NCBI GenBank assembly: GCA_014190235.1
Contig: BJGC01000009.1
Span: forward strand, 1-64,000
Direction: 5' to 3'
Source of the DNA: Actinomycetes bacterium
GTDB taxonomy: Bacteria; Actinomycetota; Acidimicrobiia; Acidimicrobiales; Ilumatobacteraceae
Length of the DNA: 64,000 bases
Both the position numbers and the translations under genes were made by a program. The notes under the pieces were generated by a model that saw nothing but the letters and a program-made list of their open reading frames with translations, ran no database searches and was not told the origin of the DNA. Positions 17,162-43,613 of the stretch are shown in pieces. Within the stretch, counting starts at the first letter, position 1. The number at the start of each line of letters is the position of its first letter.

Positions 17162-20100
17162 TCACCGAAAATCCCGACTACCTGTTGATGTCACGGCATG
17201 CAACGGAGACAAAACCTCAGCAACAATGTTGATTGCTCCCTCAACATTTTCGATTCGTCCACGCACTAATAATGCTGGTGCGTTGCGTGCCACGCTGCGG
17301 TGCCGTGCCCAACACCCGATCGAGCACACCACATTGATGAGCCCTGTTTCGTCTTCAAGATTGATAAATGTTGCGCCGTTGGCAGTCATTGGTCGTTGTC
17401 GATGTGTGACGACTCCGGCCACCCATACTCGTTGCGTGTTTGAGACACGCCCAAGAGCATCAGCACACACCACCCCCAACGCAGATAATTGTTCACGCAC
17501 AAACTTTGTGGGATGTCCGTCGGGAGAGATTCCGGTTGCCCACAAATCTGCAATGGCTTCTTCAATGGGCTCCATGCCCGGTAGATGCGGTGTCGTTTGT
17601 ACGGCAGTTACTCCCGCCAATCGTTCTGCACTTCTGGACACATGTGAACCTGCGTTCCAAAGTGCACTTCGGCGACTGAGTCCAAAACTATTCTGAAATA
17701 CACCAGCAGTGGCCATCGCTTCTACATGGGCGCGTGATAGTCCACTCACTCGGCGGCTGAGGTCATCGATGCTGTGATAGGGCCTGCCTAGAGCAATACG
17801 TGTGGCTAATTCAGCACCGACTCCGCGCACCGAACCAATTCCCATTCGCACGGCAAGTTGACCATTTGACTCAGCACATGGCTCTAGTGTCGCGTTGTTT
17901 GATGACTCATTGATATCGGGTGAGCGCACTACCACTCCGTGGCGTCGTGCATCTTGGGCCAACGTATGTGGCGACCAGAATCCCATTGGTTGTGCGTTTA
18001 ACAATGCTGCACAAAATACTGCTGGCTCGTGCAGTTTGATCCATGACGATGAATACACCAGATACGCAAAACTGACTGCGTGACTTTCAGGAAATCCATA
18101 ATGAGCAAACGCCTTCATTTTGTCAAAAATCTCATCAGCGATTGCTCCCCTGATGTCGCGCTCTGCCATACCGGCATATAAACGCTCTCGCAACTGTTGC
18201 ATGCGCGCTCGAGATCGCTTTGAGCCCATTGCTTGGCGCAGTTGATCTGCTTCTGATGGCGTGAATCCGGCAACATCAATTGCCATTTGCATGAGTTGTT
18301 CTTGAAACAATGGCACGCCAAGTGTTTTTCCTAAACTGTTCTCAAGTAATGGATGTAAATACGTGACAGGTTCTTTGCCATTGCGCCGCCGAATGTAGGG
18401 ATGCACCGAACCGCCCTGAATGGGGCCTGGGCGAATGAGCGCAATTTCGACTACCAAATCATAAAATCGTCGAGGTTTGAGTCGCGGCAGTGTTGCCATT
18501 TGCGCCCGTGACTCAATCTGAAAAACACCAACCGTGTCTGCGCGACACAACATGGCGTATACATCGTCTTCTTGGGGCAGTGTTGCTAGGTCTAGTTCGT
18601 ATCCGCGGTGCTGCAAGATGAAGTCTGTGGCGTTGTGCAGTGCTGACAGCATTCCGAGCCCCAAGAGATCGAACTTGACGAGCCCAGCAGCAGCACAGTC
18701 ATCTTTATCCCACTGCAGCACACTTCGATTATGCATCCGACCCCACTCCACCGGACACACTTCAATGACAGGTCGATCACACATCACCATGCCCCCTGAG
18801 TGGATACCTAAATGGCGGGGCATGTCCTGGATGAGAGTCGCTAGTTCTTGCACTAATGGGTCGGTGTGCTCTTGATCGTGAGCAACGCCAAGCGCTCGCT
18901 CCATGTCACGCACTGCAGATTTGGCGCGATATGTAATGACGTTTGCTACTTGTGCAGCGTGGTGTCGTCCATGTCGCTGATAGACGTACTGAATCACTTC
19001 TTCGCGACGGCCACTTTCGATGTCGATATCAATATCGGGCGGGCCATCACGCTCTGGAGACAAAAACCTCTCAAACAACAAGCCCAGCGACACGGCATCT
19101 GCCTTGGTGATACCGATGGCATAACACACTGCGCTATTGGCTGCGCTACCGCGACCTTGACACAAAATATTTGAGCGCCGACAAAACTCAACGATGTCCC
19201 ACACCACCAGAAAATATCCGGCGAAACCAAGTGTTTCGATAACTTCAAGTTCGTGGTCAATAACTCGCCATGCCCTAGCACGAAGTGACAGGTCTTCTGC
19301 GCTGTGTGTGGGGCGTGTGCCGTAGCGATGTGTTGCGCCTTGTTCTGTCAAATATCGCAAATACGCAATCTCTGACATATTGTCTGGGCACGGAAACGGT
19401 GGGAGTCGTGGCGCCACGAGTGATAAATCAAACGCAGCAGCAGCACCGATACTGCCAGCCATCTCGACAACGCCCGGATAACGCGCAAAACGACGGTGCT
19501 GTTCTGTGGTGCTACGCAAATATGCAGTGGCTGCAGGCGCTAAAAGATAATCGACTGTATTTAGTGCAGAACGTTTGTGAATAGCAGAAAAAGCCGTCGC
19601 AACACGATGATGTGCAGGTACTGCGTAGGACACATCGTTGGTGGCAATGCACAACAAGTTGCGGCGCGCGGCAAGTTGCACAAGTGCATCATTGCGCGCA
19701 ACATCTAGTGGGTCACCATGATCCCATAATTCGACAAGAACATTTTGTGATCCGAATAACTCACAGAGTTGCGCCAGCACTCGATCTGCTGCGGCTGGTC
19801 CGAATTGCATTAATGCACGCACTACTGCACCACTTGATGAACCCGTCAACACCCAGCAATGATTGGCAACATGCGCAGCAAAAGTTCGTACCTCTGTGAG
19901 CGGTGCATTTTTGGCACCTGCTAGTTGGGCTTCGCTAATCGCTCGACATAACTGCCCATAAGCACCCACTCCTTTGGCCAAGAACACCACGTCGCCAGCC
20001 CCAACTGCTCCGCTAAAACCACTGCACCACATCTCTGCACCAAAGACAGTTGGCAGGCCTACTGCTCGTGCTGCTTGAGCAAACCGAACAACGCCATAAA

Positions 20101-20233
20101 ATCCGTTGCGATCGGTCAGGGCCAGCGCCCCTAGCCCAAGTTGGGCTGCACATTCAGCGAGTTGTTCGGGATGAGATGCCCCGGCTAAAAATGAAAAATT
20201 CGAGCGACAATGCAGCTCTGCGTATGCGACCAT
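17162..20233 (-). CDS. dnaE2: Error-prone DNA polymerase III alpha subunit
   Basis: The catalytic polymerase of the ImuA-ImuB-DnaE2 mutasome, which copies damaged DNA with reduced fidelity. The N-terminal PHP domain begins AELHCRSNFSFLAGASHP; the polymerase active site has GRGSAANSAVCYAIG and PDIDIDIESGRREEV with the catalytic Asp residues; DLLGLGMLSAL and the PGPIQGGSVHPYIRR segment follow; an OB-fold domain occupies the last 150 residues. At 1023 residues it is complete. An SOS box lies 14 nt upstream of the ATG, and TACGAT ends 6 nt before it, so it is probably leaderless and damage-inducible independently of the upstream nudix gene. Confidence 0.95.
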   Translation of the reverse strand: MVAYAELHCRSNFSFLAGASHPEQLAECAAQLGLGALALTDRNGFYGVVRFAQAARAVGLPTVFGAEMWCSGFSGAVGAGDVVFLAKGVGAYGQLCRAISEAQLAGAKNAPLTEVRTFAAHVANHCWVLTGSSSGAVVRALMQFGPAAADRVLAQLCELFGSQNVLVELWDHGDPLDVARNDALVQLAARRNLLCIATNDVSYAVPAHHRVATAFSAIHKRSALNTVDYLLAPAATAYLRSTTEQHRRFARYPGVVEMAGSIGAAAAFDLSLVAPRLPPFPCPDNMSEIAYLRYLTEQGATHRYGTRPTHSAEDLSLRARAWRVIDHELEVIETLGFAGYFLVVWDIVEFCRRSNILCQGRGSAANSAVCYAIGITKADAVSLGLLFERFLSPERDGPPDIDIDIESGRREEVIQYVYQRHGRHHAAQVANVITYRAKSAVRDMERALGVAHDQEHTDPLVQELATLIQDMPRHLGIHSGGMVMCDRPVIEVCPVEWGRMHNRSVLQWDKDDCAAAGLVKFDLLGLGMLSALHNATDFILQHRGYELDLATLPQEDDVYAMLCRADTVGVFQIESRAQMATLPRLKPRRFYDLVVEIALIRPGPIQGGSVHPYIRRRNGKEPVTYLHPLLENSLGKTLGVPLFQEQLMQMAIDVAGFTPSEADQLRQAMGSKRSRARMQQLRERLYAGMAERDIRGAIADEIFDKMKAFAHYGFPESHAVSFAYLVYSSSWIKLHEPAVFCAALLNAQPMGFWSPHTLAQDARRHGVVVRSPDINESSNNATLEPCAESNGQLAVRMGIGSVRGVGAELATRIALGRPYHSIDDLSRRVSGLSRAHVEAMATAGVFQNSFGLSRRSALWNAGSHVSRSAERLAGVTAVQTTPHLPGMEPIEEAIADLWATGISPDGHPTKFVREQLSALGVVCADALGRVSNTQRVWVAGVVTHRQRPMTANGATFINLEDETGLINVVCSIGCWARHRSVARNAPALLVRGRIENVEGAINIVAEVLSPLHAVTSTGSRDFR

Positions 20234-20234
20234 C

Positions 20235-20261
20235 TGGTCATCGTAGCGAACATATGTTCGT
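20235..20261 (-). promoter_or_regulatory. LexA-type SOS box and leaderless promoter of dnaE2
   Basis: The perfect palindrome CGAACATATGTTCG occupies 20247-20260, matching the actinobacterial LexA operator core GAAC-N4-GTTC. On the minus strand it is followed by CTACGATG, where TACGAT (20240-20245) is a -10 candidate ending 6 nt before the dnaE2 ATG. A bound repressor would cover the core promoter. The 23-bp block 20239-20261 is identical to 22967-22989 upstream of imuA. Confidence 0.9.
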
Positions 20262-20263
20262 TT

Positions 20264-20800
20264 CTAACCAGCGATCCCTGCCCGGCAGACCAGCAATGCG
20301 CCCCGTAATCCGTTATCAGCAATTGCTACGGCTTGCTCCCATGCGAACCACTTGACATCTTGGCTTTCTTCTGGCCCAGGTTTTGGGGTCTCGTACGGCG
20401 CTGTCACGACATAGCGCACATCAAAATGCGTATGACCACGTGGACCGGGATGCACATCAACATGAATGAAGCGTGCGCCCTCGATGGGATGCGCCACGAC
20501 AAGACCAGTTTCTTCGTGTGCTTCTCGAAGCGCTGCATCGGCAGGAGTTTCTCCGATCTCAATATGCCCGCCTGGCTGCAACCAGAGATTGAGACGTTTG
20601 TGCAAATGCAAGACAGTGGCCGTTGGATCGATGAACGAATCGACAACGATTGCCGAAGCTGTGACATGCAATGGTCCTGCGTCTTCATCACATGGGCGCA
20701 ACAAAGTGGGAACAACATCTAAAAAGTGCTGTACTGAATCGCGTTCTCGCTGATCGATTGCCTTGTGTGTACGCAACATACTGAGGAGTTGTTGCATCAT
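20264..20800 (-). CDS. Nudix hydrolase
   Basis: A 178-residue Nudix pyrophosphohydrolase. The Nudix box GHIEIGETPADAALREAHEETGL splits as G-x5-E-x7-RE-x2-EE-xG and is intact, with metal-binding Glu residues. It lies between imuB (11 bp upstream) and dnaE2, on the same strand, so it is probably co-transcribed with the SOS genes. Known Nudix enzymes sanitise oxidised nucleotides or hydrolyse NDP-linked compounds; the substrate cannot be told here. I chose the ATG at 20800 to avoid overlap with imuB; 20797 is equally possible. Confidence 0.88.
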   Translation of the reverse strand: MMQQLLSMLRTHKAIDQRERDSVQHFLDVVPTLLRPCDEDAGPLHVTASAIVVDSFIDPTATVLHLHKRLNLWLQPGGHIEIGETPADAALREAHEETGLVVAHPIEGARFIHVDVHPGPRGHTHFDVRYVVTAPYETPKPGPEESQDVKWFAWEQAVAIADNGLRGALLVCRAGIAG

Positions 20801-20810
20801 GCTCCCCACG

Positions 20811-22316
20811 CTAGTCGTATGACGCACTGATATACCACTGACGATTCTCAATCGTCAATAGCACTAGATACTGCACTTGTGTATAGGGATGCTGAACCAA
20901 TACTTGTAATCGCGCCAAACGGCGGCGGCGCATCGGATCCCACCATCGTTCTTCTATGGGCCACGGACCAGCGAATTGTTGTACTGCATAATTACCTACG
21001 TCTGCTGAGCGTGCACTGCCATCAAGCAATGTGCTCTGCACGCGCAGAACGCTTGGTGTTTGTAGTAGTTCGTGACGCCCGGTGATCACTACTATCGCTC
21101 CGTCCTTGTCTTGCAATTGCACTTTTTGTGGCTGTGAAAACACAATTGCTGGCCAAGGAGCAGGGACTGAACCTGTCCAGTGTTGCTCTGCTCCACGTCC
21201 GCTATTGACACGTTCTGAACATGCGACATGATCTCGAATATCGACACTACCTATTGGTACTTGCAAAAAAACTTGCGCGACATCACGTCCACCTTGCCAC
21301 TCTGGAACAGTTATTTCAACATCTGCATGGACAGAAACAGCAAGTGCAACACTTCGTAGTGCGCGTTCAACATGTTCTTGACGACCACCCCACAAGCTCT
21401 GCTGCTGGGCATCAATAGGACGCACATCCATGGGCGAAAGTTGCACTCGCACAATGCCAGCCGTTGCTGCTGTATCAGTGTCAGCGCCGAGCCAGCCATC
21501 TAGTTGCCACCGAATACGTTCTAAAATTGCTGCCTCACTGAACCCACGAGGCTGATGCCACATCCGCTCATTGTGCTCACCGTGGTCTGTCTCAAAAAGC
21601 ATGTGTAACCGAATGCACTGCACGGCATGGCGCTCAAGTACTTTGATGAGATCGTGCGATGGTTCACTCATCGCTGCCACCACTATGCCACTGGTCGCGA
21701 CTGGGTCTTCAAAGACATGCTGAATGACGTAATCAATTGGCGCAATGTCGGGCACCAACACGCTGATATCAAAACCGTGGACAATGCAATGCAAGCGTTC
21801 ACCAAGCAGGCCAAATCTGTCGATAAGTTCGCGTTCTGTTAGTCCAGCGACTGCTCGTATTGTTGTGAGGCCGAGCCGTTGCAATAAATCAATTGTGTCT
21901 GGGTCTATGTCGGCGCATATGCCAAGCACGCCAGTGGGTAGCAGACCAAGAAAAGTTTCTGATCCGCCAACTGAGACAACACAGGGTGAACCAGAAAAAC
22001 ATGATTGGTGTGCCGCCGCCAAGGCACCCACGCGACCATCAGCAATTCCGACGCCGTGAGACACTGTTAACGCTTGATCTGCACAGATCCCGTGTAATAA
22101 ATCCCCGAGAGCATCATCGCCGCCGAAATACGGCGAAGGGCCCCTCGTTGCAAGTAATGCAACACCAGCAGTATCTACATGAATAAGCGGAGCAACGCTA
22201 GACAGCGCACGAACGATGGGCTCAAAAGCGCGGTGTGCCCTATCTGAATCGTCATGACCAGGCAACTTGGTCCAGTTTGGAAAAATAATTGCTGCAGTGC
22301 GCGTGGCGCTCAACAT
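20811..22316 (-). CDS. imuB: ImuB, inactive Y-family polymerase hub of the mutasome
   Basis: A 501-residue Y-family polymerase homologue. Where active polymerases have a DxDxFF motif, the N-terminus reads AAIIFPNWTK, so the catalytic acidic residue is missing, as in known ImuB proteins, which act as adaptors linking DnaE2, ImuA and the beta clamp. A beta-clamp motif QQSLWG lies at about 305-310, matching the QxxLWG of mycobacterial ImuB. An HhH segment (LLQRLGLTTIRAVAGL) is present near 145-160. The start overlaps the imuA stop by 7 bp. The C-terminal 150 residues show little conservation that I can see. Confidence 0.9.
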   Translation of the reverse strand: MLSATRTAAIIFPNWTKLPGHDDSDRAHRAFEPIVRALSSVAPLIHVDTAGVALLATRGPSPYFGGDDALGDLLHGICADQALTVSHGVGIADGRVGALAAAHQSCFSGSPCVVSVGGSETFLGLLPTGVLGICADIDPDTIDLLQRLGLTTIRAVAGLTERELIDRFGLLGERLHCIVHGFDISVLVPDIAPIDYVIQHVFEDPVATSGIVVAAMSEPSHDLIKVLERHAVQCIRLHMLFETDHGEHNERMWHQPRGFSEAAILERIRWQLDGWLGADTDTAATAGIVRVQLSPMDVRPIDAQQQSLWGGRQEHVERALRSVALAVSVHADVEITVPEWQGGRDVAQVFLQVPIGSVDIRDHVACSERVNSGRGAEQHWTGSVPAPWPAIVFSQPQKVQLQDKDGAIVVITGRHELLQTPSVLRVQSTLLDGSARSADVGNYAVQQFAGPWPIEERWWDPMRRRRLARLQVLVQHPYTQVQYLVLLTIENRQWYISASYD

Positions 22317-22960
22317 GTGGTTTGCACAAGTTGTTCAGACGACTGCGGCAACAGCACAAGTTGTGGTTGCATGCCGTGTGCACGACGACCTTCGGTGACA
22401 ATGGTGACTTCACGCTGACGAGCGTGGCCACTAAATATCCATCGCAGTGATGCAATACGCAAAGTGATGTCGACCGGAAAATCATATGAATTACCAATCA
22501 CAATCATCACTGCAGATTGTGCTTTAACACGTGCCGAAAGTTTGCGTGCTTCTGCAGTGCTGCACCGTGGTGATGCAGTCACGACAACATCAATACCATC
22601 AACTAGTGCGCCCATCATGCGCGACCAATGCGCAGTTACCCGACTGGTGTCAATGCACAACAATCTTTCGAGCGCTATGCCGTATTCGCGAGCTGAAAGC
22701 AAACCTGCACGTGGCACGTCAACAAGCGCCAACCATGAACCCTCAGATACTGCCCGTGCAACGAGTGCCCACGCCAGTGACGAAGCACCAACACCAGTGC
22801 ATTGATACACGCAACCGCGCTCAAGTGCACCCCGCGGCAAGACCGCATGCAGCGCATTGTTGACGGGTAAGAGACCGTGCTCTGTGTTTCGTTCTGCCAG
22901 ATCACGCCCAGACATGAGATGGGGGCTTGTTGGTATGGCCGCCAAGCCGGGACGAATCAT
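22310..22960 (-). CDS. imuA: ImuA-like RecA-fold protein of the mutasome
   Basis: A 216-residue protein resembling ImuA/ImuA' (RecA-like but lacking a clear intact Walker A; the corresponding loop reads TGVGASSLAW). It is the partner of ImuB and DnaE2 in SOS mutagenesis. The longest frame starts at 22981, but that codon lies inside the SOS box. The ATG at 22960 is better: TACGAT at 22968-22973 ends 7 nt before it, mirroring dnaE2. Ile/Val-rich strands (IDVVVTAS, AVMIVIGNSYDFP) fit a RecA core. First gene of the imuA-imuB-nudix cluster. Confidence 0.85.
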   Translation of the reverse strand: MIRPGLAAIPTSPHLMSGRDLAERNTEHGLLPVNNALHAVLPRGALERGCVYQCTGVGASSLAWALVARAVSEGSWLALVDVPRAGLLSAREYGIALERLLCIDTSRVTAHWSRMMGALVDGIDVVVTASPRCSTAEARKLSARVKAQSAVMIVIGNSYDFPVDITLRIASLRWIFSGHARQREVTIVTEGRRAHGMQPQLVLLPQSSEQLVQTTC

Positions 22961-22966
22961 GTTCAC

Positions 22967-22989
22967 CATCGTAGCGAACATATGTTCGT
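22967..22989 (-). promoter_or_regulatory. LexA-type SOS box and leaderless promoter of imuA
   Basis: CGAACATATGTTCG at 22975-22988 is a perfect palindrome with the LexA core. The following TACGAT (22968-22973, minus strand) is a -10 candidate. The box lies 4 bp beyond the stop of the upstream CarH-like gene. Confidence 0.9.
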
Positions 22990-26506: not shown

Positions 26507-27702
26507 TACGGGGCGCCCATCGGCGCTTCAAGCAGCGCCTCCCCTGATGCTTCAGTCGACGACCAGGACGAGTCAGCGCGTCCACCGGTGACAACGAGGC
26601 CTGGTTCACCATGGACTTCCCACAACACTGCAGGTCGTGCGCCATGCCATCTGACTGCATACGACACATATCGATGTGCGTCGGCCACCAACCGGTGACA
26701 TTCAAAGTTTTGTCCCCACCACGGTTCTGGAATGCCTCTGGGGAACAACTTAACTATCCCACCGCTTGCTGATGGCTGCGCCAGTAAAGATTCGAGCCAC
26801 GCTGCCAGTAAATGATCTTCTGGTGCCTCGACTGGAATTGGTTCAACAGCATGATCAGCCAAGCGCAACCATGCACGCGCAATGTCATCAACTGCTGCAT
26901 CTTCGTGATGGCGTGCGCAGACACTTGCTGCAGTTGACAGCAAGTGTGCTGTGTCCCATGCCAACTGGGTTGTTTTGCGTTCACGCTTAAGGCGTTGTTC
27001 TACAACGCGCACAACATCTACAATACTGTCAGCACTAAAGTCGCCTAATCGGATGCGCTCAATAACTGCGTGCTCGGCTGCCATATTGAGATCGCCCTCA
27101 TCCAATAACAGACGACTACGCACCGCAGTAAGTCGAGAGCAGAGCGACTGATCAGGTAACACCATTCGCGACGCGACCTCACATGCTGTTTCCCATCCGT
27201 TTAAAACTTGCATGTATCCAGCAATTCCAGTCGGCAGTTGGCCGGCATGGGGCTTGTTGTGCAGTAAGGCAGTGCGAACGGTTGCCTGATGACCAAGCGG
27301 CAAAACGAGGCTATTGCTTGGCATCTCAATACCTTGTGGCACAACATCACTTGGTGGATGAGTTGTCAGCACATCGTTGCGACTAAGAGCAATTACCACT
27401 GGCAGAGTTGACTCGTTGACAAACTCCATCACCGTCATGCCGCCCATGTCCGCAACGCAAAAAATGCGCTGCACGATGTCACCTCCCGGCACATGCAGAC
27501 GAGTCTCGGCAACAGGCGTCCCGGCCAGCCACTTTTGTCGCAGCGTCGGCTCGTTTTCTGGAACATACCAACGATCATCGGCAGCAACTCGCCACAATAT
27601 CGGAGCCGAACCATCACATGGAATCAACATTCCGCTGTTGGTGACCTGAGTTCTCCAATGAGTTCCGCGCACACCAATCGTGTCATGGGAGTGCCCGCTC
27701 AT
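26506..27702 (-). CDS. Hypothetical protein
   Basis: A 398-residue soluble protein I do not recognise. The first 200 residues look beta-rich with Trp and Asp/Glu (ILWRVAADDRWYVPENEP), and contain HVPGGDIVQRIFCVADMGG. Residues about 200-320 are helical, with Arg/Leu-rich helices and several His. A beta-rich tail follows (SYAVRWHGARPAVLWEVHGEPG). It is translationally coupled on both sides, gpsA upstream (ATGA) and rnhB downstream, which suggests a housekeeping role. No catalytic motif was identified. Confidence 0.7.
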   Translation of the reverse strand: MSGHSHDTIGVRGTHWRTQVTNSGMLIPCDGSAPILWRVAADDRWYVPENEPTLRQKWLAGTPVAETRLHVPGGDIVQRIFCVADMGGMTVMEFVNESTLPVVIALSRNDVLTTHPPSDVVPQGIEMPSNSLVLPLGHQATVRTALLHNKPHAGQLPTGIAGYMQVLNGWETACEVASRMVLPDQSLCSRLTAVRSRLLLDEGDLNMAAEHAVIERIRLGDFSADSIVDVVRVVEQRLKRERKTTQLAWDTAHLLSTAASVCARHHEDAAVDDIARAWLRLADHAVEPIPVEAPEDHLLAAWLESLLAQPSASGGIVKLFPRGIPEPWWGQNFECHRLVADAHRYVSYAVRWHGARPAVLWEVHGEPGLVVTGGRADSSWSSTEASGEALLEAPMGAP

Positions 27703-28706
27703 ATTGTTTCTGATTTTGATGTACGTGACATCAGCGCAGTGAGCGCCTCCTTAGCAGTTGCTCCATCACGACACACTGCAACAACTTGTTCAGTGATTGG
27801 CATATCAACGCTATGACGTATGGCAAGTTCAAGAACCGACGGAGAACTCTTCACCCCTTCTGCGACCATTGACATTGAAGCCAAAATATCATCAAGTGAT
27901 TCTCCCTGACCCAATCGCACACCAACTGTGGTGTTGCGACTTTTCATTGATGAACATGTTGCAATCAGATCTCCCATACCTGCAAGCCCGGACAACGTCG
28001 GAGCGTTACCACCCATTGCCATGGCTAGCCGTGTCATTTCAGCCAATCCGCGAGTGATCAAGGTCGCCCTTGAGTTCTCCCCGAATCCCATCCCAGAAGC
28101 CATACCAGCCGCAATTGCAATAACATTTTTTACAACGCCAGCGATTTCGCATCCAACGACATCAGAATTCGTATACACGCGTAATGTTGCCGAAGACAAA
28201 ATACTCTGTAACTGAACAGCAACGTCTGCATCATTGACTGCTACCACGCATGCTGCTGGTTGACCAAGAGCGATTTCCGACGCCAAGTTTGGGCCTGTCA
28301 AAACTGCCACCGGATGTCCTGGCATGACATCATCAACAACTTGGCTCATTCGCGACAAAGTGCCACGCTCCAAACCTTTGGCCAAACTCACGATTGGCAC
28401 TTTGGCACTCATAAATGGCGCTGCTTGCTGTGCAACATTGCGAAATCCGTGTGACGGCACTGCCATCAAGACAAGGTCCGCCCCCCCGACGACTTCTGCG
28501 AGGTCTGAAGATGCCCGCAATGTTTGATGCAGCACGATGTCAGGTAAATACTCCTGATTGCAATGAGTCCGATTGATGCTCATTGCCACATCCGGTTGTC
28601 TGGCCCACAACATGACCGATGCGTTCGCCGCGCACAGTGATGCAACGGTAGTTCCCCATGATCCAGCTCCGACTACAGCAACGCGTAGACCAGTGGAATT
28701 CGTCAT
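27699..28706 (-). CDS. gpsA: Glycerol-3-phosphate dehydrogenase [NAD(P)+]
   Basis: Reduces dihydroxyacetone phosphate to sn-glycerol-3-phosphate for phospholipid synthesis. The NAD(P)-binding VVGAGSWGTTVASL motif opens the protein; VSLAKGLERGTL and TGPNLASEIA follow, then the catalytic Lys in VVKNVIAIAAGMASGMGFGEN and GLAGMGDLIATC. The start at 28706 gives the normal N-terminus; TATCCT at 28713-28718 ends 6 nt upstream. Length about 335 residues is standard. It diverges from cofC. Confidence 0.95.
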   Translation of the reverse strand: MTNSTGLRVAVVGAGSWGTTVASLCAANASVMLWARQPDVAMSINRTHCNQEYLPDIVLHQTLRASSDLAEVVGGADLVLMAVPSHGFRNVAQQAAPFMSAKVPIVSLAKGLERGTLSRMSQVVDDVMPGHPVAVLTGPNLASEIALGQPAACVVAVNDADVAVQLQSILSSATLRVYTNSDVVGCEIAGVVKNVIAIAAGMASGMGFGENSRATLITRGLAEMTRLAMAMGGNAPTLSGLAGMGDLIATCSSMKSRNTTVGVRLGQGESLDDILASMSMVAEGVKSSPSVLELAIRHSVDMPITEQVVAVCRDGATAKEALTALMSRTSKSETI

Positions 28707-28712
28707 GGCATC

Positions 28713-28753
28713 AGGATAACTGTCGGAGTACTCCCACTGCCTCCCTCTAGGCT
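28713..28753. promoter_or_regulatory. Divergent leaderless promoter pair gpsA / cofC
   Basis: TATCCT on the minus strand (28713-28718) ends 6 nt before gpsA and TAGGCT on the plus strand (28748-28753) ends 6 nt before the cofC GTG, within a 53-bp intergenic space. Confidence 0.6.
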
Positions 28754-28759
28754 GACGAG

Positions 28760-29323
28760 GTGCGAGTAGCGCTTGTTGTCCCAATGAAATCATTCAATGT
28801 TGCTAAGGGGCGACTCTCTGACGTGCTCGACACCAACGAGCGCCAACAACTCGCCCGTGATTGTGCGCGAGTAGTTCTTGGCGCAGCCGGAAACTGGCCC
28901 AAATACGTCGTTTGTGATGCTGATGACGTTGCGAATTGGGCAAAAGAAATAGGTGCGCACGTCGTGTCGTGCCCCACACCTGGACTTGATGAAGCAGTTG
29001 CCGCCGGAATAACCGCAGCAATCACAGATGGCGCACAACACATTGTGGTGGCGCACGCAGATCTTCCACTTGCTCACACGTATCAACATCTCGTCCTAGA
29101 CGCACAAGTGGCTTTGGTGCCAGACCGTCACATGGACGGCACGAACGTCTTGAGCTTTCCGGCCGATATGCGATTTGCAACTGCATACGGTCCCCAAAGT
29201 TTTATGCGCCATCAAGAAATTTTGACAACACTTGGACATCGATACGTTGTTGTCAATGATAACGAACTGTCACTCGATCTTGATACAGCCGATGATCTCA
29301 CCGAACTGAGGAAACGAACATGA
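28760..29323 (+). CDS. cofC: 2-phospho-L-lactate (or PEP) guanylyltransferase, F420 biosynthesis
   Basis: Activates 2-phospholactate or phosphoenolpyruvate with GTP for FbiA. The N-terminus VALVVPMKSFNVAKGRL, with PMKxxxxAKxRL nucleotide-binding pattern, and VVAHADLPLA, DRHMDGTNVL, and LDLDTADDL match CofC/FbiD. Length 187 is normal-short. Starts with GTG; overlaps the PIG-L gene by 4 bp, suggesting co-expression. This completes fbiA and fbiB at 6.7-8.5 kb. Confidence 0.92.
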   Translation: MRVALVVPMKSFNVAKGRLSDVLDTNERQQLARDCARVVLGAAGNWPKYVVCDADDVANWAKEIGAHVVSCPTPGLDEAVAAGITAAITDGAQHIVVAHADLPLAHTYQHLVLDAQVALVPDRHMDGTNVLSFPADMRFATAYGPQSFMRHQEILTTLGHRYVVVNDNELSLDLDTADDLTELRKRT

Positions 29324-30096: not shown

Positions 30097-30875
30097 CGAC
30101 CAAACTGCCCAGGTTGTCGCCCTTCTCCGGGTGGTCCAGCAAAAGCTTGTGCGATATCCATCCAATCATGCGCCAAGTCGCCATGAATTTCAAGATGCAC
30201 ATCATTTATGTGACGGCGACGCGTCACCACTTGACAGAAGTCGAGTACGTCTCCGCTCACGCTGTGCGCTCCGTCGTCACCCCATCGCCATATTGTCCCA
30301 TCAGGTGCGCTCAATCGCACGCACACCTCACCGGCAGGTAATTCACGTTGATTCGCAGCGTATGAGAACGCACGTGCCCGCACGCCTATGTGAGCAATAT
30401 GACGCAAGCGCGGTGTTGATAGTACTTGCACGCTCAGCGCATCTGCCACGTCGTGCGCATGGGCCCATGTTTCCATGACACGTGCCGTCACCATTGATGC
30501 AACTGACATCGATGGACCGTACCATTGACACCGCGTCTCTGGTGACACTCCCTGCACTGCCGTGCACAGCGATGTGTTTGCATCTACCCACCACTTCACG
30601 ATATTCGCGTGGGAACGAAAACGTTCTTGTCGATGAATATCTACACCCGATGACCGAAGAATTTTAAGATCCTCAGAAAAACGTACCGCGTCTGTCATAG
30701 ACCAGAGAGCACGCTCGTCGAACAAAGCAAGATGAATAATTTGATCCGCGATACACCAACCGGGAGCAGGTGTTGACGTGAGCCAGTCATTGTCATCCAA
30801 TGGTTCGATCAATCTCAGGAGAGACTCTGCTTCGGCTCCAAGATCCTGCGCAAGTTGCACGATGTCGATGCCCAT
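30093..30875 (-). CDS. Maleylpyruvate-isomerase-fold protein (TIGR03084-like)
   Basis: A 260-residue DinB/MDMPI-fold protein. The N-terminal four-helix bundle carries LTSTPAPGWCIADQIIHLALFDERAL, with the His used as a metal ligand in the family, and later VMETWAHAHDVADAL with more His ligands. The C-terminal beta domain reads VRLSAPDGTIWRWGD. Related proteins are mycothiol-dependent isomerases or unknown metalloproteins. CACAAT ends 6 nt before the ATG. Substrate unknown. Confidence 0.85.
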   Translation of the reverse strand: MGIDIVQLAQDLGAEAESLLRLIEPLDDNDWLTSTPAPGWCIADQIIHLALFDERALWSMTDAVRFSEDLKILRSSGVDIHRQERFRSHANIVKWWVDANTSLCTAVQGVSPETRCQWYGPSMSVASMVTARVMETWAHAHDVADALSVQVLSTPRLRHIAHIGVRARAFSYAANQRELPAGEVCVRLSAPDGTIWRWGDDGAHSVSGDVLDFCQVVTRRRHINDVHLEIHGDLAHDWMDIAQAFAGPPGEGRQPGQFGR

Positions 30876-30911
30876 GTATTGATTGTGTCAAAGATGATCC
30901 CGAAAAGCAGA

Positions 30912-30935
30912 AACGAGGGGCTTTCGCCCCTCGTT
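30912..30935 (-). terminator. Intrinsic terminator of the hup operon
   Basis: A perfect 10-bp stem (AACGAGGGGC with GCCCCTCGTT) closes a GAAA tetraloop as read on the minus strand. It is followed by a modest T-rich run (TCTGCTTTT). It lies about 50 bp after the lysine-rich gene. Confidence 0.85.
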
Positions 30936-30985
30936 CCTTGACACTCTGAACCGATTGGTTCTGTGATGAAAACAGTAGAGAAGGA

Positions 30986-31210
30986 CTAAGCCTTCTTCTT
31001 TGCTGCTCTCTTCTTGCGCTTTGCAGGAGCCTTTTTCGCTGCTGCTTTCTTCTTGCGCTTTGCAGGAGCCTTCTTCGCTGCTGCTTTCTTCTTGCGCTTT
31101 GCAGGAGCCTTCTTCGCTGCTGCTTTCTTCTTGCGCTTTGCAGGAGCCTTCTTCGCTGCTGCTTTCTTCTTTGCTGGGGCCTTCTTACGGGCCTTCTTCT
31201 TTGCTGCCAC
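30986..31210 (-). CDS. Stand-alone lysine/alanine-rich histone-H1-like tail protein
   Basis: A 74-residue protein made almost only of Lys, Ala, Arg and Pro, with four 13-residue repeats AAAKKAPAKRKKK. It resembles the C-terminal tail of mycobacterial HupB but here is its own ORF, 28 bp downstream of the tail-less HU gene. It has a GTG start with AAGAGGA as ribosome binding site 6 nt away, so it is independently translated rather than a frameshift fragment. It probably neutralises DNA phosphates and aids nucleoid compaction. A perfect terminator hairpin follows. Confidence 0.85.
   Translation of the reverse strand: MAAKKKARKKAPAKKKAAAKKAPAKRKKKAAAKKAPAKRKKKAAAKKAPAKRKKKAAAKKAPAKRKKRAAKKKA
31011..31166. 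repeat. 39-bp tandem repeat, four units
   Basis: Units at 31011-31049, 31050-31088, 31089-31127 and 31128-31166 are near identical and encode the 13-residue basic repeats. Copy number could change in frame. Confidence 0.95.
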
Positions 31211-31238
31211 TTGAGTTTCCTCTCTTTGTGTAAGTGAT

Positions 31239-31523
31239 TTACTTACGGTTTGGGTTTAGCTCAGCCTTGAGCGTTGAGCTCGCTGAGAACTTCATCGCGG
31301 TTGAAGCAGGAACATTGACCGTGGCACCCGTTTGTGGGTTACGACCTGTCCGTGCCTTGCGTTGGGTTGCACTGAATGAGCCAAAGCCCGGCCATGCAAC
31401 CTTTCCGCCATTCTTAGTAGAAGCAACCACCAGTGCAAAGAACGCCGCAATTGTTCGTTCGGCATCTGCCTTGGAACAATCCGCTGCCTTTGCAACTTCT
31501 TCGATGAGCTCTGCTTTTGTCAT
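31239..31523 (-). CDS. hup: HU-family DNA-binding protein
   Basis: A 94-residue nucleoid protein. TKAELIEEVAKAADCSKADAERTI is the helical dimer body, GKVAWPGFGSFSATQRKARTGRNPQTG is the HU signature with the Pro-containing arm, and it ends at NPNRK without the Lys-rich tail that HupB has. The start at 31523 is set by GAGGAGGA (31533-31540), which is 9 nt upstream; the ATG at 31532 abuts that sequence and is too close. Operon with the tail protein. Confidence 0.95.
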   Translation of the reverse strand: MTKAELIEEVAKAADCSKADAERTIAAFFALVVASTKNGGKVAWPGFGSFSATQRKARTGRNPQTGATVNVPASTAMKFSASSTLKAELNPNRK

Positions 31524-37068: not shown

Positions 37069-37476
37069 TTATACGCGCCCTTGTGCGATGTGCTGATCGA
37101 TCACTTGGCGCACCATAGCGATGACTTCTTCTGCTGTCGAACCAGGCGTAATGACTCCTGCTACTCCAGCCTCAAGCAACTTAGCAACATCAGGCACAGG
37201 GATAATGCCACCAACAATCACCGGGATATCTGCCCCACGATCACGCAACTTCTGCACCACTCGCGGTGCAAGAGTCATGTGTGCCCCGGACAGCATGGAT
37301 AATCCAATTGCATCAACGTCTTCGTCTATTGCAGCCGCAGCCACTGTGTCAGGCGTCTGAAAAAGTCCGGTGTAGATCACTTCAAATCCGGCGTCACGCA
37401 ACATGCGCGCCACGACTTTGACTCCACGGTCATGCCCATCGAGTCCGACTTTTGCCACCAAAATACGTTGTGCCAT
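37069..37476 (-). CDS. B12-dependent acyl-CoA mutase, small cobalamin-binding subunit
   Basis: A 135-residue cobalamin-binding subunit. VGLDGHDRG holds the DxHxxG motif whose His ligates cobalt; LSMLSGAH and VGGIIP complete the site. Size and sequence match the small subunit of heteromeric isobutyryl-CoA mutase (IcmB) as I recall it. It has a Shine-Dalgarno (AGGGAGA). The large subunit is at 39111 with pgi in between. Confidence 0.9.
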   Translation of the reverse strand: MAQRILVAKVGLDGHDRGVKVVARMLRDAGFEVIYTGLFQTPDTVAAAAIDEDVDAIGLSMLSGAHMTLAPRVVQKLRDRGADIPVIVGGIIPVPDVAKLLEAGVAGVITPGSTAEEVIAMVRQVIDQHIAQGRV

Positions 37477-39110: not shown

Positions 39111-40754
39111 CTAGATTGTTGGAACTTCCACGTGTTTTCCGAACACCGACCCCAACGTATTCATGACCTCGCCAAGAGTTGCGTACACCGACACCGCATC
39201 AATGAGTGCTGGCATGACATTGAGTTCTGGATCGGCTGCAACCGTGCGCAAATAATCGAGGGCTTTTTGAACAGCATTGTCATCTCTTGACAACTTGACT
39301 GATTCAAGGCGTTTGTGTTGGCGAGCCTCATCTTCATTGGTGATTTGCAAAACGTCAATACTTGCTTCGTCATTGCCCTCAAGAAAACGCGTCACGCCCA
39401 CAACGGTGCGGTCGCCAGCGTTCAGCATCTTTTCTTGAATGTAGGCAGAGTCAGCAATGCGCCCCTGGAACCAGTTGTCTTCAATACCCTGAATAACTCC
39501 TTCGAGCATTGATCCAGCACCCAACGTATCAATCGTGGCAAAAATTGCTTCTGCTTGGCGCTCCATCTCGTCTGTCAAAGACTCAACAAACCACGAACCG
39601 CCAAGTGGGTCTGCCACATTTGTGACATTTGTTTCGTAGGCCAAAACTTGCTGCGTGCGCAACGCAATACGCGCCGCCTTCTCTGTTGGTAACGCAAGGG
39701 CTTCATCCATTGAGTTTGTGTGCAGACTTTGTGTGCCACCCAAGACCCCGGCCAATGCCTCGATTGCAGTTCGCACAATATTGACCTCTGGCTGCTGCGC
39801 GGTGAGAGAAACTCCGGCTGTCTGCGTATGGAAACGCAACTGCATCGAGCGCTCTGATGTTGCGCCATAGCGTTCTTTGGTCCAACGCGCCCAGATTCGT
39901 CGTGCTGCGCGATACTTGGCAATTTCTTCAAAGAAGTCAATATGTGCATTGAAGAAAAATGACAGGCGTGGCGCAAAAGCATCAATGGGCAACCCGGCTT
40001 GCATCGCAAGTTCAATATAGGCAAAACCATTGGCCAGCGTAAACGCCAGTTCTTCGGCAGCAGTCGCTCCCGCCTCACGAATGTGGTATCCAGAGATTGA
40101 AATTGAGTGCCAACGTGGCATTTCATTTGTCGCGAATGCGATCGTGTCCCGTACTAAGCGCATGCTGTGACGCGGAGGAAACACAAATTCTTTTTGTGCT
40201 TGGTATTCCTTCAAGATGTCGTTTTGAAGTGTTCCGCCCAATTTTGCGCGCGGGACTCCTGCTCGCTCAGCCTGAGCAATAAACATGGCAAAAATAACTG
40301 CGGCCGGAGAATTAATTGTCATTGATGTGGTGATCTCTGAAAGATCGATTCCGTCATACAGATCTTCCATGTCTGCCAAGGTGTCAATGGCAACACCACA
40401 TCGACCAACTTCGCCGTCGCTCATCTCATGATCAGAGTCGAGCCCAAGCAGAGTTGGCATATCAAAGGCAGTCGACAGGCCGTCACCACCAGCGCGAATG
40501 ATTTCTTTAAACCGCCAGTTCGTATCTTGGGCAGTGCCAAAGCCCGCGAACATACGCATTGTCCAAAGTTTGGAACGATACATCGAGGCGTATGGTCCGC
40601 GCGTGTACGGATACACACCAGGTTGTTCTGCATCATCTGGTCCGTACACCGGCTCGAGTGCAATTCCTGACATCGTGGTAAAGGGTTCGTCGCGAACCTT
40701 GCTCGCGGCAAACGCCGCTTCCCATTCTTTGCGTGGATTCATTTCTGCTGCCAT
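39111..40754 (-). CDS. B12-dependent acyl-CoA mutase large subunit, isobutyryl-CoA mutase-like
   Basis: A 547-residue TIM-barrel catalytic subunit of the methylmalonyl-CoA mutase family (YPYTRGPYASMY, SISISGYHIREAGATA, FFNAHIDFFEE). The substrate-determining pair differs from methylmalonyl-CoA mutase: WTMRMFAGF has Phe69 where that enzyme has Tyr, and LKEYQAQKEF has Gln187 where it has Arg. Phe/Gln is the pair in isobutyryl-CoA mutase IcmA, which interconverts isobutyryl- and n-butyryl-CoA; spacing of the two residues (118) is also identical. The cobalamin domain is on a separate subunit (37069). AAGGAA precedes the ATG at 40754. Confidence 0.88.
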   Translation of the reverse strand: MAAEMNPRKEWEAAFAASKVRDEPFTTMSGIALEPVYGPDDAEQPGVYPYTRGPYASMYRSKLWTMRMFAGFGTAQDTNWRFKEIIRAGGDGLSTAFDMPTLLGLDSDHEMSDGEVGRCGVAIDTLADMEDLYDGIDLSEITTSMTINSPAAVIFAMFIAQAERAGVPRAKLGGTLQNDILKEYQAQKEFVFPPRHSMRLVRDTIAFATNEMPRWHSISISGYHIREAGATAAEELAFTLANGFAYIELAMQAGLPIDAFAPRLSFFFNAHIDFFEEIAKYRAARRIWARWTKERYGATSERSMQLRFHTQTAGVSLTAQQPEVNIVRTAIEALAGVLGGTQSLHTNSMDEALALPTEKAARIALRTQQVLAYETNVTNVADPLGGSWFVESLTDEMERQAEAIFATIDTLGAGSMLEGVIQGIEDNWFQGRIADSAYIQEKMLNAGDRTVVGVTRFLEGNDEASIDVLQITNEDEARQHKRLESVKLSRDDNAVQKALDYLRTVAADPELNVMPALIDAVSVYATLGEVMNTLGSVFGKHVEVPTI

Positions 40755-40764
40755 CTGCGATTCC

Positions 40765-41376
40765 TTACTTTTTGCTGCGACCAAGAATCGCCCAAGCAGT
40801 TGGAGCAATTGCACCTGCAAGAAGCATCTTCAAAAGGTCACCGACAAGAAACGGAGTCACGCCATAAGCAATTGCGTTAGCGTCTCCGGTGGCAATTGGA
40901 ATATGCAAGTGATGCGCAAGCCATCCAGCACCAAAAACATAAATCACAACAGTGCCCATTGCCATCGCCGAAAAAGACGAGGCGTAATTGCGGTCCCCGC
41001 GCATCTCGGACAAATATCCGATTAGTGCTGCCGCCAGAATAAATCCGACAAGATATCCCATCGTTGATCCAGTTCCGGCTGACCACCCACCGTCACCGCC
41101 AGAATAAAACGGAAGTCCGATAAGCCCCATCGCCCAGTACACACCCTGCGACAGCGCACCACGTCGCCATCCCAACACGCTCCCGCTCACCAACACAGCA
41201 AATGTCTGTCCAGTAATAGGAACAGGCGTAAAGCCAAGATGAATCGTAATCTGTGCGGCCAATGCAGTGAACAGTGCAAAACCAACAACTAAGACGGCAT
41301 CACGGCCGATAGCGCGAGAACGAACGGTCGGTACTGCAAGTAGATCAACAAGAACTGCTGGAGAGGTGGTAGTCAT
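40765..41376 (-). CDS. bioY: Biotin transporter substrate-binding component
   Basis: The ECF-type biotin transporter S component, 203 residues, with about six TM helices. TPVPITGQTFAVLVSG and YWAMGLIGLPFYSGG... GYLVGFILAAALIGYL are BioY signatures. The start at 41376 follows TAGTCT by 7 nt; the longer frame has an unrelated N-terminus. It diverges from the DUF305 gene and precedes the mutase operon. No EcfA/EcfT genes are near. Confidence 0.92.
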   Translation of the reverse strand: MTTTSPAVLVDLLAVPTVRSRAIGRDAVLVVGFALFTALAAQITIHLGFTPVPITGQTFAVLVSGSVLGWRRGALSQGVYWAMGLIGLPFYSGGDGGWSAGTGSTMGYLVGFILAAALIGYLSEMRGDRNYASSFSAMAMGTVVIYVFGAGWLAHHLHIPIATGDANAIAYGVTPFLVGDLLKMLLAGAIAPTAWAILGRSKK

Positions 41377-41403: not shown

Positions 41404-42057
41404 ATGAATACAGAGTCCGATGCCATCCTGCTGCCGTGGTGGAAAAATCCTGCAAATATCCTTATTGGGGTCGTCGTAGTGGCAATTTTTCTTGGTTCTG
41501 TGGGCTATTCCGTCGGCAACCGTGCCGGACGCGTTCAGCATAATTCTGTCGATGTCGGCTTCTTGCAAGATATGCGTGTTCACCACGAACAAGCAGTCGC
41601 CATAGCCTCTGTGTATCTCGATATTTGGACAGACGGCAATGCGGTGGAGCGCACAATTGCCCGTGAAATTCAGTTTGACCAATCTTTTGAGTCAGGGCGA
41701 ATGGTGCAACTCTTGCGCATTTTTGGAGCATCCGAAGTCAACGAAACAGATCAGGCGATGACATGGATGAACGAAACACACGATGCGATGTCATCGATGC
41801 ATGATCCAGTGCCACTTGAGCGCATGCCGGGACTCGCCACTGACGAACAATTGCAAGAGTTGCGTAGAGCAAAGGGTGTCGAGGCCGACAAGTTATTTGC
41901 CCAACTGATGATTGCCCATCACAACGGTGGACTCGACATGGCGGAGTATGCAGTTGAGCACGGCAAAAATAATGAGGTGCTCGGCCTTGCGGCCGCAATG
42001 GTTGCCGCTCAAACAAGTGAACTCGCCGAACTCAATCGGATACTCTCATCCTTGTGA
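41404..42057 (+). CDS. DUF305 domain protein
   Basis: A 217-residue protein with one N-terminal TM anchor (about 20-38) and an exported ferritin-like helical domain. HHEQAVAIA and AHHNGGLDMA are the paired His motifs of DUF305, which binds metals in some members. It overlaps ppx by 4 bp (GTGA), so the two genes are co-transcribed. Function unknown. Confidence 0.88.
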   Translation: MNTESDAILLPWWKNPANILIGVVVVAIFLGSVGYSVGNRAGRVQHNSVDVGFLQDMRVHHEQAVAIASVYLDIWTDGNAVERTIAREIQFDQSFESGRMVQLLRIFGASEVNETDQAMTWMNETHDAMSSMHDPVPLERMPGLATDEQLQELRRAKGVEADKLFAQLMIAHHNGGLDMAEYAVEHGKNNEVLGLAAAMVAAQTSELAELNRILSSL

Positions 42058-43613
42058 CCGAGTCATCTGGCGTTATTGGCGCACTTGATATCGGAACAAA
42101 TAGTTTCCATCTCGTGATCGCACGCGCAACCCACTCGGGCTTCGAAGTGATTGCACGAGAAAAAGAAATGGTCCGACTTGGCGAAGGCTCTGGCGACATG
42201 AAACTGCTGAGCCCAGAAGCAATTGAACGTGGTGTCATTGCACTTCGCAACATGCGACGAATAGCAGATGTCCACGGAGCAGAACTGCGAGCTATCGCCA
42301 CAAGTGCCGTTCGAGAAGCCACAAACGCGGATGTCTTTATAAATCGGGCGCTCAAAGAAGCATCTATTGTTATTGAAGTTATCTCGGGAGTAGAAGAAGC
42401 TCGGCTCATCCACCTAGGCGTCATGCAAGCGATTCCACTCATGGATACTCGTTCAATTGTTATTGACATCGGTGGGGGCAGCACGGAGGTTGTCATTGCC
42501 GATGGACTGTCCCAGCATTTCGTTCGAAGTTTCAAACTCGGAGCAATTCGCTTAACAACTCGATTTTTTTCTTCAACTTCACTACACCCCTCTGCAACAT
42601 CTGCATGTCGCAAATTTCTCCATTCAACTCTGTCGCCATCACGCAAAGAGATCGTTCAGTTAGCACCCAAAATTGCCGTTGTTTCATCCGGAACGGCAGA
42701 AGCCCTTGCAAGCATGGTGAGAATTTTGCGGGATGAATCTGAGCCAAAATCAATGAACGGCTTCAAATTCACGATCAAAGAACTAGAGGTTGTCGTCGAT
42801 CTTCTGGCTCAATCTCCAACAGTTGAGATGCGTCGTCAGTTACGAGGTGTCGACGCCTCTCGCGCAGACATTATCTTGGCGGGTGCACTTATTTTGGACA
42901 CGATTGCCCATGAGTTTGAGTTGCAGAATTTTATTTTCAGTGATTTCGCTTTGCGGGAGGGAATTATTCTCGATACTTTGCAGCGAACAGAACACTTAGA
43001 CCATCAACATCTGCACCAGGTTTCATTAAACAGCGTTATGGGACTTGTTGAACGTTGCGATGACGACGTTGCGCACAGTAAAAACGTAGCGAGACTCGCG
43101 CTTGAACTCTATGATTCGCTCGAAAAGGAATACGATTTCAGTCCCGAGTGGCGGGTTCTTTTAGAAGCCGCATCCTTGCTCGCCAATGTCGGGCTCATTG
43201 TCTCGCACAGCAAACACCACCTGCACTCGTATTACGTCATCAGAAACTCAGATCTTGTCGGATTCACCGACCATGAAATCGAGCTCATTGCGTTGATCGC
43301 TCGCTATCACAGAAAAGGCCCACCAAAGCCGTCGCACAATGATTTTGCCAACCTTTCTGAGGCAGAACAGCAACTCATCATATTTTTGGCAGGCATCTTG
43401 CGCGTTGCTATTGGTCTTGATCGTTCACATGACGGACGAGTCACACGCCTTGACGTTGAGATCAAAAAAAGTTCAGTAGATATCACTGTCAACACTTCTA
43501 TGACTCAGATAGATGCACTCGAAATGAACTTATACGCAGCGCGCGAGCGTCAACAACTGCTCGAGACAGCACTTGGCGTACCCATCATGTTTGTGGCTGG
43601 CTCAGACGATTAA
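42054..43613 (+). CDS. Ppx/GppA-family exopolyphosphatase
   Basis: A 519-residue protein. GALDIGTNSFHLVIA and SIVIDIGGGSTEVVI are the ASKHA phosphate-binding motifs; the C-terminal HD-like region reads HSKNVARLALELYD and SHSKHHLHSYYVIRNSDLVGF, followed by RYHRKGPP, as in E. coli Ppx, though the usual LH(D/E) is LLANVG, so the metal site may be altered. It degrades polyphosphate or pppGpp. GTG start; convergent overlap with the next gene. Confidence 0.9.
   Translation: MTESSGVIGALDIGTNSFHLVIARATHSGFEVIAREKEMVRLGEGSGDMKLLSPEAIERGVIALRNMRRIADVHGAELRAIATSAVREATNADVFINRALKEASIVIEVISGVEEARLIHLGVMQAIPLMDTRSIVIDIGGGSTEVVIADGLSQHFVRSFKLGAIRLTTRFFSSTSLHPSATSACRKFLHSTLSPSRKEIVQLAPKIAVVSSGTAEALASMVRILRDESEPKSMNGFKFTIKELEVVVDLLAQSPTVEMRRQLRGVDASRADIILAGALILDTIAHEFELQNFIFSDFALREGIILDTLQRTEHLDHQHLHQVSLNSVMGLVERCDDDVAHSKNVARLALELYDSLEKEYDFSPEWRVLLEAASLLANVGLIVSHSKHHLHSYYVIRNSDLVGFTDHEIELIALIARYHRKGPPKPSHNDFANLSEAEQQLIIFLAGILRVAIGLDRSHDGRVTRLDVEIKKSSVDITVNTSMTQIDALEMNLYAARERQQLLETALGVPIMFVAGSDD

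Follow-up and report, generated by a model that had tools for sequence, protein, structure and literature searches.

In mycobacteria, HU and its Lys/Ala-rich, histone H1-like tail are part of the same protein (HupB). In M. smegmatis, HupB lacking this C-terminal domain (CTD) is reported to be mostly mobile and off the nucleoid, the tail being needed for stable DNA binding (PMC5676037). The Acidimicrobiia are described as containing only HU of the HU_acti_0 clade, of which the Streptomyces member is tail-less (PMC5683647). Outside the actinobacteria, Hc2 is presented as a free, Lys-rich protein that varies in length through its repeat units (PMC2848022), and AlgP, which has H1-like K/P/A repeats, as an organizer of polyphosphate granules in Pseudomonas (PMC9239181).

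In the current study, HU and a Lys/Ala-rich, histone H1-like tail were found to be encoded by two adjoining genes in a freshwater actinobacterium (genome of 2.02 Mb in 55 contigs). No published report of a separate HU tail gene was found in the open-licence PMC literature. The window referred to below is the whole stretch of 64,000 nucleotides that was analyzed.

Two genes for HU and its tail

31239..31523, minus strand: HU-family protein, 94 aa, without C-terminal tail (PF00216 and full-length relatives)
31229..31245, minus strand: inverted repeat GTAAGT...ACTTAC spanning the HU stop codon (genus comparison, folds)
31216..31226, minus strand: Shine-Dalgarno (SD)-like site of the tail gene (such a motif precedes the tail in 34 of 41 family loci; alignment of 7)
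30986..31210, minus strand: Lys/Ala/Pro tail protein, GTG start, 74 aa, about 7.9 kDa (ORF, family conservation, codon-position mismatch)
30989..31171, minus strand: 39-bp tandem repeats coding KAAAKKAPAKRKK (TRF, 4.7 copies, 96% matches)
30909..30938, minus strand: 13-bp GAAA-loop hairpin, where the HU-tail transcript probably ends (fold; kept in the genus)
28760..29323, plus strand: cofC, positional marker (TIGR03552 above cut-off; also near the HupB-type HU in L313)
27699..28793, minus strand: gpsA, positional marker common to hupB/hupS loci (NCBIfam, synteny)

The HU protein matched the HU fold profile PF00216 over residues 1–90 of 94 (E 1.8e-29) and ends in ELNPNRK, followed by a TAA stop. 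The covalent C-terminal PAKK/KAAK tail characteristic of HupB and HupS is absent from it, and the tail is a separate ORF, whose GTG lies 28 nt beyond the HU stop and out of frame with HU. The AGAGAGGA ahead of this GTG is a plausible SD sequence. The tail protein is made of four exact 13-residue KAAAKKAPAKRKK units and a partial unit. Basic residues account for 40 of its 74 positions (34 Lys, 6 Arg) and Asp and Glu for none; together with 28 Ala and 5 Pro, K, A, R and P make up 99% of the protein, with a pI of about 12. It had no match at E 1 among the Pfam and NCBIfam models. The layout given in the original prediction (HU ending at NPNRK, 28 nt, a GTG ORF with its own SD-like site and four 13-residue repeats) was confirmed. 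A promoter scan found no promoter-like site upstream on the minus strand.

The downstream neighbor of the tail gene starts at 30875. Between the two genes lies the GAAA hairpin, and the 96-nt stretch containing it folded with a z of -3.8. A hairpin of 12–13 bp was present 3' of the tail stop in all 22 genus loci tested, the window included, at a distance of 47–50 nt in 20 of them (21 nt in L014, 68 nt in L022), and stem substitutions between genus loci preserve pairing. A terminator had been predicted here; the U-run is weak, and a simple terminator scan did not pick up the site. All 26 genus loci with data had the inverted repeat around the HU stop, and none of the 16 other family loci tested did; it was part of the lowest-energy fold in 19 of the 26.

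Low complexity, a length varying from about 20 to 170 aa across the family, and loss in a few genomes could be taken to mean that the tail is a repetitive ORF without function. Selection was assessed from DNA alignments of the 22 genus loci whose tail is complete and free of masking, with tail lengths of 54 to 122 residues; L006, L009, L025 and L028, which are truncated or masked, were excluded. The 17 pairs in which the HU genes differed by less than 2% were dropped, leaving 214 of 231 pairs. Mismatch at codon positions 1, 2 and 3 of the tail gene was 0.041, 0.025 and 0.237, and pN/pS was 0.14 in the real frame versus 3.71 and 6.55 in the other two, as low as that of HU (0.21). A pN/pS of 0.22 from protein-guided alignments was discarded because such alignment favors matches, and the DNA-aligned test with shifted frames was used instead. 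The pattern of substitution indicates that the tail ORF is under purifying selection, which contradicts the non-functional reading; as start and SD-like site are conserved as well, this reading is hardly credible.

Other features of the window were also recorded. A mutasome-like cluster (17162–22981) holds a DnaE2-type error-prone polymerase and ImuA', and the 501-aa ORF between these two genes, which had no NCBIfam match, may be ImuB. Methylmalonyl-CoA mutase is present as two genes, one for the N-terminal domain (39111–40820) and one for the B12 domain (37069–37476), with glucose-6-phosphate isomerase between them.

Conservation in the family and distribution in the class

Named near relatives include metagenome-assembled genomes (MAGs) of the Ilumatobacteraceae, a family of the class Acidimicrobiia. 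For the family, 45 HU loci were read from 53 listed genomes, 3 of them running off the contig; among the remaining genomes, 4 had no match, 2 had fragments only and 2 a weak match only. One of the two listings of family genomes left out 11 genomes that had no match. The tails of L009 and L033 were partly masked. A separate tail start was present in 41 of the 42 readable loci, the exception being L137, which has no tail. Relatives assembled independently thus carry the same two-ORF layout, and indels between species in the spacer disrupt neither ORF, so that a sequencing error splitting a single frame, for which a check had been proposed, was ruled out. Nor is the layout a peculiarity of this genome, as could have been supposed: it is an old layout of the family, and it occurs in other families of the class too.

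Spacers between HU and tail ranged from 4 to 56 nt over the 41 family loci, with 20 in frame 0, 15 in frame 1 and 6 in frame 2; the 25 genus loci that have a tail start all show 27 or 28 nt. An SD-like motif precedes the tail in 34 of the 41, and the other seven have spacers of 4–8 nt, which would fit coupled re-initiation. These data also bear on whether the cell makes HU and tail as one protein by stop read-through or frameshifting. Although 20 of 41 spacers are in frame with HU, and one natural fusion (L161, see below) runs through an SD and an ATG, the spacers fall in all three frames, the window's own spacer of 28 nt does not keep the frame of HU, and 34 of 41 loci retain an SD-like site. 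A read-through or frameshift fusion cannot therefore be general, and we consider it very improbable.

The tail gene can also be lost. It is absent after HU in L137 and L076, and about 20 residues are left in L078 (L076 and L078 belong to the named loci, among which many are duplicates from the same genomes). The contigs of L027, L028, L034, L035 and L036 stop just past HU or within the tail repeats, suggesting that the tail gene is likely to be cut or missed in some assemblies. Two records titled as Bifidobacterium breve MAGs (L059 and L065) contain an Ilumatobacteraceae-like locus, and their names look wrong.

Beyond the family, the loci were the best-scoring ones and not a random sample, and tails were called by a Lys-based rule. 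A looser detector was dropped, as it scored Arg/Gly-rich frames of GC-rich genomes as tails; the Lys-based rule missed L142, which was corrected by eye. Within the Acidimicrobiia, tails were fused, separate or both, and the separate form occurred in several other families. Ten class loci (L046–L055) comprised 6 separate, 1 fused, 2 without tail and 1 unreadable. Among 20 order loci (L137 of which belongs to the family), 12 had no tail, 3 a fused one and 5 both forms after rereading of L142, the rule alone giving 4 fused and 4 both; one of the five is L138, for which the start of the separate tail is uncertain. In a further 60 order and class loci, the tail was separate in 18, fused in 10 (one truncated by the contig end), present in both forms in 2, absent from 29 and unreadable in 1. 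Many of the rows without tail fall in other, tail-less HU clades. The separate tail of one set of families starts with VPPAKK behind a GAAAGG-like site, 44–101 nt from HU for the start as chosen by script. In L200, a single open frame seems to carry two tandem HU domains and then a short Lys tail.

A separate Lys-rich ORF was found in 0 of 76 loci of other actinobacterial classes (18 fused, 57 without tail, 1 unreadable), and none was listed for L091–L135, mostly from other phyla.

Position, phylogeny and origin of the tail gene

The HU tree had 206 rows after removal of named duplicates, 17 rows of the genus and 3 poor ones and addition of 4 outgroup rows; the HU trees rest on 89 columns, with 105 of their 202 inner branches open. 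The window HU fell in a tail-associated clade (SH-aLRT 90) of 69 rows, with 47 separate, 10 fused, 6 both, 4 unreadable and 2 without tail. In this clade, which was chosen post hoc, a K-rich tail was thus fused to or adjoining HU in 63 of 65 readable rows. In a second HU tree, HupB/HupS-type rows formed a clade of their own (100/98 support) with the window HU outside, and the window HU core was 31–32% identical to mycobacterial-type proteins. Constraining HupB/HupS and the tail-associated rows as one clade gave a p of 0.063, by which this grouping is neither supported nor rejected. In the same second tree, the tail-associated rows were themselves not monophyletic, and constraining them together gave a p of 0.27. 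From their HU architecture and neighboring genes, we infer that f92 is mycobacterial and f87 Streptomyces-like.

The neighborhood was compared in wide loci. In 15 class loci with tail-associated HU and a separate tail, a fused one or both (L304–L308, L310–L312, L323–L329), cofC was near HU in 13 and gpsA in 11, in the window's orientation. Neither gene was nearby in L306 (HU 67% identical, fused tail) or in L307 (separate tail, from the family). Outside the class, gpsA was at most 7 kb from HU in seven of seven tailed-HU loci (L313–L316, L319–L321), versus none of four tail-less-HU loci (L309 and L322 of the class, L317 and L318). The order in L313, according to NCBIfam, was leuC-leuD-HU-(MutT1-like, below cut-off)-ppk-cofC. 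An NCBIfam scan of 27 window ORFs revealed neither leuC nor leuD; the gpsA/cofC side is shared. Judged by position on this side (HU, cofC, gpsA), the window locus matches hupB/hupS. The idea of a HupB split in two is therefore upheld in that a separate, selected tail gene lies at the hupB/hupS position, but not as regards the HU core, which lies outside the HupB/HupS clade.

It was also found that the split applies to this locus and not to the whole genome, since a second HU (L002, 143 aa) retains a fused Lys/Ala tail; together with seven family counterparts, it forms a clade (99). Further Lys/Ala stretches were seen in the same genome. A topoisomerase-like ORF (L332, 1480–3117; identity inferred) ends in a Lys/Ala C-terminal tail, and a Lys/Ala repeat ORF (L330, 1495–2336) scored above the HC2 cut-off. 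The latter seems to run on in another frame into a second ORF, possibly through a frame break in the repeats or an assembly fault. This second ORF may resemble DksA/TraR. With these further tails, the tail is a common module in this genome, the stand-alone gene behind HU being the special part.

Alignment had been proposed as a way to decide whether fission or fusion came first, and the outcome depended on the root. With HupB/HupS as root, parsimony favored an ancestor with a fused tail in 198 of 200 bootstrap trees and one lacking the separate gene in 170 of 200; the best tree of that run did not recover this outgroup as monophyletic. After L138 and L187 were dropped, the lean was small (3 versus 4 changes for the fused tail, 5 versus 7 for the separate gene). 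With tail-less HUs as root, the ancestral state was tied. A single switch between fused and not fused (fused versus rest partition) was marginally rejected (p 0.0445). The AU rejection of a single clade of all separate rows (p 3e-5) was dismissed as trivial because rows cut by contig ends stood outside.

The opposite of a HupB fission has to be considered as well: an independent H1-like gene may have joined the hup operon, the fused tails being later fusions. The coexistence of fused and separate tails in six loci (L140, L142, L143, L146, L170 and L172) is in keeping with this, as is the tie under tail-less-HU rooting. So is L161 (1480–1889), where HU stays in frame across AAGGAGG and ATG and continues as the tail (LNPK-EEVP-MAVSKAPAKK) until the contig ends inside the latter. 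On its reading frame, L161 is a natural intermediate between the fused and separate forms, indicating that the switch takes little; as the frame crosses an intact SD and ATG, both products may be made. The HupB/HupS rooting speaks against later fusion, with the caveat that its preference for a fused ancestor is reduced to the small lean noted above. We regard later fusion as possible, if rather doubtful, the trees leaning to fission.

Proposed function and comparison with known systems

It is probable that the locus is an operon of HU and an H1-like protein in which the tail is supplied in trans. The two genes would form a nucleoid operon at the position of actinobacterial hupB/hupS, transcribed as one mRNA from which tail-less HU and, at a ribosome site of its own, a free polycation of the H1 type would be made. 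The tail protein, predicted from its composition to be disordered, would bind and neutralize DNA non-specifically and would aid HU in nucleoid compaction in trans, replacing the covalent C-terminal tail of HupB. Separate translation would allow the HU:tail ratio to depart from 1:1, and the repeats would allow tail length to drift. Since HupB of M. smegmatis leaves the nucleoid without its CTD, the tail-less HU studied here plausibly needs a tail from elsewhere. Against an operon with a trans-acting tail, the second HU with its fused tail could cover the function, the tail gene can be lost, as in L137 and L076 (with a remnant in L078), the window protein matches no profile, and the promoter scan came back empty on the minus strand upstream.

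Alternatively, as with AlgP and polyphosphate granules, the tail could bind polyanions in general (polyphosphate, RNA or ribosomes) and have only the transcript in common with HU. A KPAA fragment of AlgP is reported to bind DNA, and the domain to be needed for granule spacing (PMC9239181). In addition, ppk is close to the HupB-type gene in L313, and the window contains an exopolyphosphatase (42054–43613). However, the NCBIfam scan of 27 window ORFs revealed no ppk, and the tail lies on or beside HU in nearly all readable rows of the tail-associated clade, showing that it is tied to HU. A polyanion binder of this kind is unlikely.

Extending the operon of HU and trans-acting tail, we tentatively suggest a core/linker type of chromatin, which is conceivable but goes further: a tail-less HU core and a free, trans-acting H1-like linker from one operon, in adjustable ratio, with lineages within one bacterial class shifting between fused, separate and double (fused plus free) forms. 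As tail and core are uncoupled at the same locus, covalent attachment, cellular ratio and lineage switching become questions that can be asked directly, and the genus offers a natural series of tail lengths (54–122 residues).

Several known systems resemble parts of this locus. HupB (Mycobacterium) and HupS (Streptomyces), of the HU_acti_C group, are likewise actinobacterial HUs with an H1-like PAKK/KAAK tail and gpsA nearby (cofC in L313). They differ in that the window tail is a separate gene, the window HU core lies outside their clade, and leuC/leuD are not among the 27 scanned ORFs. Tail-less actinobacterial HUs (HupA, HU_acti_0) are similar in having no C-terminal extension, but the HupA-type locus L317 is without the hupB/hupS neighborhood, which the window HU has, together with an adjoining tail gene.

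Hc2 and AlgP may be seen as relatives in kind of the free tail. Chlamydial Hc2 (Pfam HC2, histone H1-like nucleoprotein, PF07382) is, as described, also a free Lys-rich protein with its length set by repeats; the window tail differs in being encoded in tandem with HU, and the window protein was unmatched at E 1 by HC2, for which the gathering score served as cut-off. Of four relatives' tails, the longer one of L032 passed (47.8 versus a cut-off of 40), while those of L044, L049 and L140 did not. The model is prone to composition, with weak matches in 4 of 14 control genomes, none over the cut-off. As the L140 tail passed a Mucin-like model and the HC2 results were mixed, matches of this sort owe as much to composition as to kinship. 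The C-terminal domains of AlgP and PhaF share H1-like K/P/A repeats with the window tail, but in the published descriptions these repeats are fused to other N-terminal domains, whereas the window tail stands alone beside HU.
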